DNA from: an uncultured Eubacteriales bacterium
GTDB lineage: Bacteria > Bacillota > Clostridia > Lachnospirales > Lachnospiraceae
NCBI GenBank assembly: GCA_949289145.1
Contig: CASEML010000103.1
Location: 1 to 54,946 of the forward strand
Direction: 5' to 3'
DNA length: 54,946 nt
This document shows, in pieces, positions 45,686 through 47,212 of the stretch; positions within the stretch are counted from its first letter, which is position 1, and every line of letters begins with the position of its first letter. A model generated the notes under the pieces. That model searched no databases. It was not told the origin of the DNA and saw only the letters and a list, made by a program, of their open reading frames with translations. The position numbers and the translations under genes were made by a program.

Positions 45686-46993
45686 CTAGCAAGTGGGGCT
45701 TTCTTCTTTAAGTTTAACAATTGCTTCCACAATTTTGTGATTTTCTACAGAATTTACATGAATCACCATACCATATGCCTCACAAGTAAATTGACTGCCT
45801 TCTTCCGGAATCTTATCAATCACATTGTAAATAAATCCGTTAAAGGTATCGCAGTAATCATCAGGCAGTTTTATATGCAGTTGATTCTCAACATCGCTCA
45901 TTTCAGCATCGCCTCGAATACGCCATGTATTAGGAGAAAGCAACTCGATTTTTTCCATATCTTGTTCATTTTCCTCATAGATTTCTCCTACAAGCGCTTC
46001 CACAAGGTCGTGAAGAGTTGCAATGCCTGACATTTCACCATACTCGTTTAAAAGCACCGAAAAATAATTTCTGGTATGCTTCATCTGTTTAAATAATTTG
46101 GTGGCTTTCATATTTTCAGGTATAAAATAAGCAGGTTTAATTGCCTGTTCAAAAATAGCTGTTAAAGATTTTTCTTCTAATCTAAAATAGTCTTTCGTAT
46201 CTAAGATACCTATAATATTTTCTTTCGTATCTTTGCATACCGGATAGAAACTATGACGATTTTTATAAATGATTTCTTTCCACTCCTCCACACTATCGTC
46301 CATATCTAGAACAATCACATCGGCTCTATGTGTACAAATCTGCTCTGCCGATATATCGTTGAATTCAAAAACGTTTTGAATAATTTCATTTTCCTGCTTG
46401 TCGATGATTCCCTGAGCATTTCCCTCAATTAACATCATTTGAATTTCTTCTTTCGTTATCTGATCCTCCTCATCTGTAGGATTGATTCCCAAAATACGAA
46501 GAAGTAAATTAGCTGAAAATGTTAATAAAGAAACAATTGGCGAAAATATACGTGCTATGCCATATAAAGTAGGAGCTAATCCTAATGCCAGTGCTTCAGA
46601 ATTTTTCATAGCAATACGTTTGGGAACCAGTTCTCCAAACACAATGCTGATATATGATAATATAATCGTAACGCCGAATACCGCAATAGAATTTAATGTT
46701 TTCTCTGGAATCCGAACTCCTATTGACACTAGTGCTTCAACAATTATACCTGCAAAATTATCCGCAGCAAATGCACTATTTAAAAATCCCGCTAATGTTA
46801 TTGCAACTTGGATTGTAGCAAGGAAGCGGGAAGGCTGCTCTGTTAAAGCATACAATTTCTTTGCTCTCTTATTTCCACTGTCCACAAGATGCTTCAGTTT
46901 TGTTTCTTTCATAGAAATTACGGCAATTTCTGCACTGGCAAATACCGCATTTAAAAATGTAAACACAATAATTAAAATGATAGAACCTAACAT
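45686..46993 (-). CDS. CNNM/CorC (HlyC) family membrane protein with CBS pair, probable Mg2+ transport
   Basis: 435 aa. The ATG at 46993 has GAGAGG upstream; the longer frame from 47047 starts inside a hairpin without a ribosome site. Domain order: DUF21/CNNM membrane domain (about 1-185, with the helix LGSIILIIVFTFLNAVFASAEIA), CBS pair (about 200-325), and CorC_HlyC domain (about 345-425). Relatives (MpfA, YhdP, CNNM) are linked to magnesium export and tolerance. A short acidic leader ORF and an attenuator-like hairpin lie upstream. Confidence 0.9.
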   Translation of the reverse strand: MLGSIILIIVFTFLNAVFASAEIAVISMKETKLKHLVDSGNKRAKKLYALTEQPSRFLATIQVAITLAGFLNSAFAADNFAGIIVEALVSIGVRIPEKTLNSIAVFGVTIILSYISIVFGELVPKRIAMKNSEALALGLAPTLYGIARIFSPIVSLLTFSANLLLRILGINPTDEEDQITKEEIQMMLIEGNAQGIIDKQENEIIQNVFEFNDISAEQICTHRADVIVLDMDDSVEEWKEIIYKNRHSFYPVCKDTKENIIGILDTKDYFRLEEKSLTAIFEQAIKPAYFIPENMKATKLFKQMKHTRNYFSVLLNEYGEMSGIATLHDLVEALVGEIYEENEQDMEKIELLSPNTWRIRGDAEMSDVENQLHIKLPDDYCDTFNGFIYNVIDKIPEEGSQFTCEAYGMVIHVNSVENHKIVEAIVKLKEESPTC

Positions 46994-47027
46994 ACAAAAT
47001 CCTCTCTTTATGTATCGTAAATTTTTT

Positions 47028-47073
47028 AAAATACCAAAAATAGGCATAGCCAGTAAGTCAACTTACTAACTAT
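47028..47073 (-). promoter_or_regulatory. Attenuator-like hairpin between leader ORF and CNNM gene
   Basis: On the minus strand ATAGTTAGTAAG (47073-47062) pairs with CTTACTGGCTAT (47057-47046) around TTGA: 12 bp including two G-U pairs. The next bases read GCCTATTTTTGGTATTTT, rich in U. It begins 4 nt after the leader stop codon, so ribosome behaviour on the leader could decide whether it forms. Confidence 0.5.
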
Positions 47074-47077
47074 ACCT

Positions 47078-47149
47078 CTATATATCCATAATTGCTAATG
47101 CATAAGAGTTCATTATTGTAGTATGGTTGTCGTCCGAATCATCCTCCAT
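47078..47149 (-). CDS. Asp-rich 23-aa leader peptide upstream of the CNNM gene
   Basis: Minus-strand ATG at 47149, preceded by GGAAGTGA with 7-nt spacing, opens a 23-codon frame beginning MEDDSDDNHTT and ending at TAG 47078. Five of the first seven residues are Asp or Glu. A consensus promoter ends about 35 bp upstream, and a hairpin follows the stop. In E. coli, acidic N-termini such as that of MgtL destabilise translating ribosomes when Mg2+ is low and so control a Mg2+ transporter gene. The placement before a CNNM gene makes a similar role plausible, but this is inference. Confidence 0.5.
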   Translation of the reverse strand: MEDDSDDNHTTIMNSYALAIMDI

Positions 47150-47183
47150 GCAATTTTCACTTCCTTTCTCTAATATATACAAA

Positions 47184-47212
47184 TATATATCATATTTATT
47201 ATTTGATGTCAA
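47184..47212 (-). promoter_or_regulatory. SigA promoter of the leader/CNNM transcript
   Basis: Consensus TTGACA (47212-47207), a 17-nt spacer and TATATA (47189-47184) on the minus strand. Transcription would start near 47177, about 28 nt before the leader ATG. Confidence 0.7.

Follow-up and report, generated by a model that had tools for sequence, protein, structure and literature searches.

An acidic leader peptide running into an intrinsic terminator precedes CNNM and other ion-transport genes in Clostridia and may act as a ribosome-based cation switch

A short acidic leader peptide followed by an intrinsic terminator precedes, in recognisable form, many ion-transport genes across Clostridia, as judged by comparing sequences related to an element ahead of a CNNM/CorC-family gene in a 54,946-nucleotide stretch of DNA (hereafter the window). 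The leader, selection on its acidic codons, a covarying terminator, a frame that stays open up to it and the association with ion transport are all well supported by these comparisons, as is, statistically and in one group, a long-range helix designated P1. We consider it somewhat more probable than an even chance that the element is a cis-acting leader-peptide attenuator, in which the ribosome would be the sensor and translation-dependent antitermination, with an acidic gate, would turn the gene ON at high cation.

In the window, the parts of the element are arranged as follows:

47184..47212, minus strand: sigma-70-type promoter TTGACA-17-TATATA, with the -35 at 47212-47207 and the -10 at 47189-47184 (read directly)
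47157..47169, minus strand: extended Shine-Dalgarno AGAAAGGAAGTGA, 7 nt ahead of the start codon (read directly)
47078..47149, minus strand: leader ORF of 23 codons, MEDDSDDNHTTIMNSYALAIMDI and stop (MEDDSDD...; translation, with purifying selection at its head)
47129..47146, minus strand: putative acidic gate, leader codons 2-7 (E D D S D D; conservation and low pN/pS)
47144..47151, minus strand: 5' strand of the long-range helix P1, start-codon region GCAUGGAG (native versus swapped pairing)
47100..47108, minus strand: 3' strand of P1, CUCUUAUGC, within the leader ORF (folds and pairing test)
47042..47077, minus strand: intrinsic terminator hairpin, its first base directly after the leader stop codon (fold and covariation)
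47036..47041, minus strand: terminator U-run AUUUUU (ATTTTT in DNA; read directly)
45686..46993, minus strand: CNNM/CorC-family transporter gene, 435 aa (Pfam CNNM, CBS, CorC_HlyC)

Promoter, ribosome site, 23-codon ORF, hairpin with U-run and CNNM gene could all be read directly where the original prediction had placed them; the hairpin, described there as 12 bp, comprises 16 pairs counting G-U, with a loop of 4. Pairing of the Shine-Dalgarno with the 16S end, using what we take to be the anti-SD sequence, spans about 13 nt and yields a duplex of -15.7 kcal/mol, and the 11 close relatives have AGAAAGGATGTGA. The CNNM coding sequence begins 48 nt past the terminator hairpin; its start was set at 46993 on the basis of homology and a ribosome site, a longer ORF from 47047 beginning at the terminator. 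The region 45686-47212 adjoins ORFs resembling surface-polysaccharide genes and was possibly transferred.

Taken alone, the parts found in the window are within the chance expectation of shuffles, and the case therefore rests on comparison. There were 19 promoter-like sites vs. 19.5 in shuffles (the TTGACA/TATATA promoter is absent from these 19 because its -10 lacks the final T demanded by the scan), 3 terminator-like sites vs. 2.6, and a leader fold with a z of -1.95. In 17 of 28 leaders, the stretch before the ribosome site contains a promoter-like match scoring 9/12 or more, compared with 17% of base-shuffled copies, and 8 of the 28 scored nothing in this search. A known riboswitch was rejected on the negative outcome of Rfam: at gathering thresholds, neither the window nor nine other leader loci matched any family, and at E up to 5 there were only two weak matches, both to unrelated families.

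The protein encoded downstream matches Pfam CNNM at 2e-48 and carries CBS and CorC_HlyC domains, and its nearest solved structures are hemolysin/CorC/CNNM proteins. Its best-scoring model is that of the PaeA polyamine exporter, below cut-off at 230 of 500 bits. By analogy with S. aureus MpfA, a Mg2+ exporter (PMC6711546), the window protein may export Mg2+ (or polyamine). Orthologs are present in other Lachnospiraceae and Clostridia; a search of four other genomes of the genus yielded no close CNNM ortholog and no leader DNA, one genome having a CNNM match at E <= 1e-60 with 33% identity.

Upstream of the closest CNNM orthologs, the same arrangement recurs: the ribosome site is followed by an ORF that opens with acidic residues, for example VEDSSDDCHT, and whose stop codon adjoins the hairpin. 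Every one of the 11 orthologs sharing 65% identity or more has a leader, as does the window (the L036 leader included). The leader of L031 comes from Blautia caecimuris. When regions were classed by CNNM identity, an ORF satisfying the acidic criterion was found in 11/12 at 65% or above (the window being one of the 12), 23/35 at 50-65%, 15/32 at 40-50% and 0/40 below 40%, keeping in mind that shuffles give 0.6-3.9% of such ORFs and that some cases in the 40-50% class, e.g. L066, are doubtful. Acidic ORF and terminator occurred together in 11, 19, 8 and 0 regions of these classes, and the leader was absent from 24 of the 76 orthologs with at least 40% identity. A copy of the window locus (L027) was excluded from all counts.

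A scan blind to acidity, which asked for a strong ribosome site, 14-40 codons and a terminator at the stop, returned a candidate leader in 31 of 119 CNNM upstream regions, window included. All 31 carry D or E at residue 2, and 29 have at least three acidic residues in positions 2-9, L009 and L128 having two; the set includes the near-duplicates L004/L110 and L005/L115, and since the leaders share descent, the counts are not independent. As a control, the same scan was run over 624,204 bases on both strands (the window itself was scanned; rows L001, L004, L005, L027 and L129-L131 were left out), and outside these regions it found the L036 leader and six others, two of which are nested starts of one ORF and one of which is acidic and lies inside a long ORF. 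The original prediction would have fallen with an absence of conservation in relatives; the leader is conserved, both in residue 2 of these 31 leaders and in the pN/pS values given below. Two loci are unusual in layout: in a Blautia MAG (L036:206-973), the CNNM gene lies about 700 nt away from the conserved leader and terminator, as if by insertion, and in L137 the leader is intact and the CNNM match covers only residues 1-58, which may reflect a decayed gene or an assembly break.

Substitution patterns point to selection at the peptide level. In two hand-picked groups, 12 Blautia-like leaders and 12 leaders of a second group (23 of the 24 also belong to the acidity-blind set), pN/pS over codons 2-8 was 0.28 and 0.33, respectively; over codons 9-11 it was 0.27 and 1.02, so that purifying selection extends to codons 2-11 in the Blautia-like group, and over codons 12-16 it was 0.96 and 0.93. 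When codons 2-8 were read in either of the two alternative frames, the ratio was 0.83-1.45. Between the window and L028, 7 of the 8 differing codons within codons 2-10 are synonymous, while all 5 differing codons beyond codon 10 alter the residue. Since pN/pS is low at the head and not at the tail, we conclude that selection at the peptide level acts on the acidic head but not on the tail. Per-position acidity was not used as evidence because that set had been selected for at least three acidic residues, which would be circular. A candidate conservation of the C-terminal peptide was rejected as well, the underlying motif TATGRATAKATAR being read in different frames (L034, L037, L114, L124).

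If the leader were an amino-acid attenuator in which Asp codons sense charged tRNA-Asp, in the manner of his or trp leaders, runs of Asp codons ahead of a terminator would be as expected; however, not only do GAC, GAT, GAA and GAG interchange in the acidic run (in a leader set preselected for acidity), but Asp, Glu, Ser, Ala and Pro interchange there too, the target genes are mostly ion transporters rather than genes of aspartate metabolism, and no antiterminator was seen by eye in the leader folds, so we hold this reading to be very improbable. Equally slight are the chances that the ORF is an independent gene for a small protein, closed by its own terminator, and that CNNM is expressed by incidental readthrough: promoter, ribosome site, ORF and terminator do make a complete anatomy, yet constraint covers the first 8-11 residues only, the rest drifting in sequence, length and frame, the leader stays with ion-transport genes across distant taxa, and the frame is open up to the hairpin.

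The terminator covaries, with compensatory double changes at 11 of the 16 pairs of the consensus helix (24 leaders). Together with the selected acidic start, this bears out the original view of the locus as an Asp-rich leader peptide with an attenuator before a CNNM gene. The terminator 5' arm GGYATARYCTG (alignment A2, columns 116-127) is conserved beyond the needs of pairing, even between leaders of unrelated genes. Within the leader tail, TATGRATAKATAR and CCATGTA are read in different frames among relatives, and since these motifs are kept across frames, part of the tail is maintained as RNA. The cross-frame conservation of the 3' part and the over-conserved 5' arm would suit an RNA-only element, protein-binding or an unknown riboswitch, with an incidental ORF; the pN/pS and open-frame results and the lack of an Rfam match at thresholds speak against it, and we give it very little credence.

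P1 is formed by base pairing between the start region and CCATGTA or its counterparts (for example UACAUGGA/UCCAUGUA, GCAUGGAAGA/UCUUUCUGCA, GCGUGGAA/UUCCCGC). P1 was examined in the CNNM-ortholog group, with L004, L005, L009, L030, L032 and L033 dropped; native pairing exceeded that obtained after the 3' regions were swapped between leaders (permutation p 0.0003 over 25 leaders), and 11 of the 25 leaders individually gave p below 0.05 against their own shuffles. The helix is weak in the window alone (z -1.4, p 0.11), and in the pairing test of this group it was absent in L108, L003, L110 and L006. An antiterminator pairing with the terminator 5' arm was also considered; folds cut before the 3' arm revealed no common partner by eye and showed P1 instead, which has no overlap with the terminator arms.

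The geometry of the reading frame was assessed in leaders found by covariance model, with no stop-codon criterion. Seven of 41 rows were set aside, L151 because no hairpin was found and six because they have fewer than three acidic residues. In all 34 remaining leaders, the acidic frame is open to within 15 nt of the hairpin or through it, and in 24 it ends inside or after the hairpin, while frames +1 and +2 are open to the terminator in only 8/34 and 3/34; the training leaders of model R1 had been chosen with a stop at the hairpin, and the count may thus be biased a little. Of the six leaders with fewer than three acidic residues, five likewise have their end at or in the hairpin, L205 being the exception. 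No other observation says more about mechanism than this open frame up to the terminator, for a ribosome finishing the leader would have to sit on or cross the terminator.

We propose that RNA polymerase first copies a short ORF headed by a very strong ribosome site and then an intrinsic terminator starting at the end of the ORF, and that over the first seven or eight codons the Asp/Glu-rich peptide would destabilise the translating ribosome. Given enough Mg2+ or other ribosome-stabilising cations such as polyamines, the ribosome would survive the gate, reach the stop at the hairpin base or cross the hairpin, and cover the terminator 5' arm, with the CNNM exporter ON; at low Mg2+, it would drop off or stall at the gate, letting the terminator fold, with the exporter OFF. 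In the CNNM-ortholog group, P1 probably shuts the start site after ribosome loss, so that each transcript would have one trial. Leader translation, acidic destabilisation in Clostridia, the Mg2+ or cation signal, the ON state at high cation and the role of P1 are the parts of this scheme that we infer. Transcription-translation coupling may be loose in Firmicutes, which counts against the proposal. To our knowledge, ribosome destabilisation by acidic chains is known only from enterobacteria and, as cited in PMC11282234, from eukaryotes. In E. coli, acidic residues near the start of a chain can make ribosomes pause or dislodge them (PMC11282234), and such residues are at work in mgtQ of Salmonella too (PMC8092293); by analogy with these two sources, a nascent acidic chain may do the same in Clostridia.

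The sign of this switch would be the reverse of what the original prediction, modelled on MgtL, had in mind, namely a gene turned ON by low Mg2+. Because the ORF runs up to or into the terminator at its 3' end, loss of the ribosome on the acidic codons should free the terminator and leave the gene OFF, and OFF on drop-off with ON on survival would suit an exporter such as S. aureus MpfA (PMC6711546). Bacterial relatives acting against excess Mg2+ likewise fit a gene ON at high Mg2+ (PMC6711546 and PMC12421838). For the MgtL-like sign to hold, abortion at low Mg2+ would have to leave a free RNA that, with P1, blocks termination, and CNNM would have to work in uptake. Such a switch has a precedent in MgtL and MgtQ, where drop-off turns a Mg2+ importer on (PMC11282234 and PMC8092293), and P1 could in principle steer folding. 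It is nevertheless improbable in our estimation, given that the terminator is at or inside the ORF end in 34/34 leaders with at least three acidic residues, so that ribosome loss frees it, that P1 does not overlap the terminator arms, that MpfA exports Mg2+ (PMC6711546) and high Mg2+ induces corC and mgpA, genes of Salmonella with a CorC domain (PMC12421838), and that the targets include P-type ATPases nearest to Ca2+ pumps.

Among described systems, MgtL of mgtA in E. coli and Salmonella shares with the element a short ORF, an acidic destabilising start, a cation transporter target and control of termination (PMC11282234), and the window likewise has early Asp/Glu codons in a short leader ORF before a cation transporter gene. 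MgtL differs in having a Rho-dependent terminator and the motif EPDP, and in that ribosome loss turns an importer ON, whereas the window leader, compared with MgtL by description, has an intrinsic terminator at or under the ORF end, where loss should turn an exporter OFF; nor was a conserved alternative pairing with the terminator 5' arm seen that would correspond to the alternative leader structures of the MgtL type. The MgtQ uORF differs in that it acts on translation of mgtB, an importer gene of Salmonella, via a stem-loop at the ribosome site and not on termination. The small ORF and intrinsic terminator of the window element recall the ribosome-mediated attenuators of Firmicutes (erm-type and others), in which the same two parts stand before the controlled gene and which rely on stalling together with an antiterminator or drug. 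In the window leader, by contrast, the ORF end meets or overlaps the terminator and the sensor would be an acidic run; as in a ribosome-dependent attenuator, the intrinsic terminator lies within reach of the ribosome (34/34 leaders, and 5/6 of those with fewer than three acidic residues).

A parallel in sign is the N-terminal IRD of E. coli CorC (YbeX), whose destabilising start should permit synthesis only at sufficient Mg2+, and the destabilising sequence in the N-terminus of CorC itself is suggested as the cause of corC induction by high Mg2+ (PMC12421838). There, the acidic run is in the protein and not in a separate leader with a terminator; the window anatomy would yield the same sign by another route. 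Some leaderless CNNM orthologs resemble CorC in having an acidic start of their own, such as MDSDP. An acidic N-terminus was found in 9 of 24 leaderless orthologs vs. 1 of 52 with a leader (Fisher 7e-5, a post hoc comparison; further examples are MLGDDP and MNEGDP), and 15 of the 24 have neither leader nor acidic start. This comparison left out L004, L005, L027, L058, L120 and regions under 300 nt except L117; the leaders of L113 and L119 were included on visual inspection and others on the strength of further scans (L009, L128, L036, L117 = L174), and for L054 and L112 the start was assigned by hand. The acidic CNNM N-termini of L016, L084, L042, L039 and L045 (MDDDPDGDS, MDPDSS, MDSDP) resemble leader peptides. 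Possibly, the leader is an acidic N-terminus that became detached and that other CNNM orthologs still carry. An acidic outside N-terminus could also serve membrane topology, and the association between leaderlessness and acidic start is for that reason only suggestive.

The element is broader than the single CNNM gene for which a leader had been predicted: the leader is there, and its scope is wider. Covariance model R1 gave matches in 42 of the 397 genomes of the family and model R2 in 69 of 397, at 91 distinct places altogether, of which 67 were leader-like by hand count. These 67 places precede the following genes:

CNNM: 48 places, comprising 35 CNNM orthologs (L137 truncated) and 13 of a second CNNM subfamily
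P-type ATPases (Ca2+-ATPase type): 6 places
UppP-PopT: 2 places, near-identical DNA in two genomes
TrkH: 2 places
AI-2E genes: 3 places
Na+-pump decarboxylase beta subunit, ABC ATPase and GNAT protein: 1 place each
Contig ends: 2 places
No near gene: 1 place

CNNM identity rests on tblastn for some places, on Pfam or NCBIfam for L165, L166 and L197, on adjacency to known matches for G032, G343 and G029, and on the printed N-terminus for others. Two of the six P-type ATPases were NCBIfam-scored, with a PMR1-type Ca2+-ATPase as best model, below cut-off; one of these two, compared with solved structures, was nearest to calcium-transporting ATPases including Listeria lmo0841, and of the remaining ATPases one was assigned by Pfam and the rest by resemblance of the printed sequence. 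Profile searches (NCBIfam/Pfam) identified UppP, the PopT-like protein and the decarboxylase beta subunit, and both TrkH genes, one AI-2E gene and the ABC and GNAT genes were also identified by profile. Model scores are weak for the TrkH leaders (E 6e-4 and 1e-3 per genome), the evidence for which comes from two genomes and the frame test. Other weak places kept among the 67 are L170 (degenerate, no near gene), L137 with its CNNM residues 1-58, L205 and L210 (AI-2E, with a single acidic residue among positions 2-9) and L191, L193, L202 and L206 (two). The other 24 of the 91 places were judged chance, mostly terminators without an acidic ORF; they include L208, L212 and L225, where an ORF of weak acidity was discounted on visual inspection, two antisense matches inside leaders (G177, G074) and G094, which was not inspected.

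In a class-wide search, 20 of 331 genomes gave matches, 13 of them leader-like, namely the window, G348 and 11 others in eight other families; nine of these 11 precede CNNM (G052 was already known as L009, and L234 was confirmed by Pfam), L232 precedes an E1-E2 ATPase of the Ca2+-ATPase type and one lies at a contig end. Of the remaining matches, four were judged chance, L238 is doubtful, and L240 and L246 were not viewed. A strict DNA pattern matched three of the 397 genomes, all at CNNM leaders, and is too strict to inform.

TrkH, UppP-PopT, AI-2E, GNAT and ABC ATPase targets are not simply explained by export of divalent cations, and with TrkH and uppP-popT among the targets, the signal may be wider than Mg2+. 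Polyamines also stabilise ribosomes. The same antiterminator could respond, through its acidic run, to polyamines, cytoplasmic pH, monovalent ions or ribosome-targeting inhibitors, as the TrkH, Na+-pump decarboxylase beta, UppP-PopT and AI-2E targets and the sub-threshold PaeA score of the window CNNM would allow; on the other hand, 48 of the 67 places before CNNM and six before Ca2+-ATPase-type genes point to divalent cations, and we see another signal as unlikely, if less so than the rivals above. That the CNNM, Ca2+-ATPase-type, TrkH, Na+-pump and uppP-popT genes form one regulon, ON when cations stabilise ribosomes and with a leader possibly derived from a detached N-terminus, is a tentative reading to which we assign slightly less than even chances.

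If the attenuator proposal is true, Clostridia, including many gut bacteria, would detect an excess of cations at the ribosome, by way of a short acidic peptide combined with a terminator, the MgtL switch would be reversed in sign, and nascent-chain ribosome destabilisation as a sensor would extend from enterobacteria to Gram-positives. It would also explain the acidic leaders or acidic starts at CNNM and Ca2+-ATPase-type genes and offer dozens of natural variants for dissecting the effect of the acidic run. No description of such leaders in Clostridia was found in the open-access papers searched, which is weak evidence of novelty.

In L176:1501-3319 and L162 (G177, G074), an acidic leader and terminator stand before uppP and a DUF368 gene resembling popT, which connects the recycling of undecaprenyl phosphate with the acidic leader element. 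In L211 and L213 (G207, G019), an acidic leader and terminator stand before TrkH-type genes, and the next ORF in L211 resembles KtrA.
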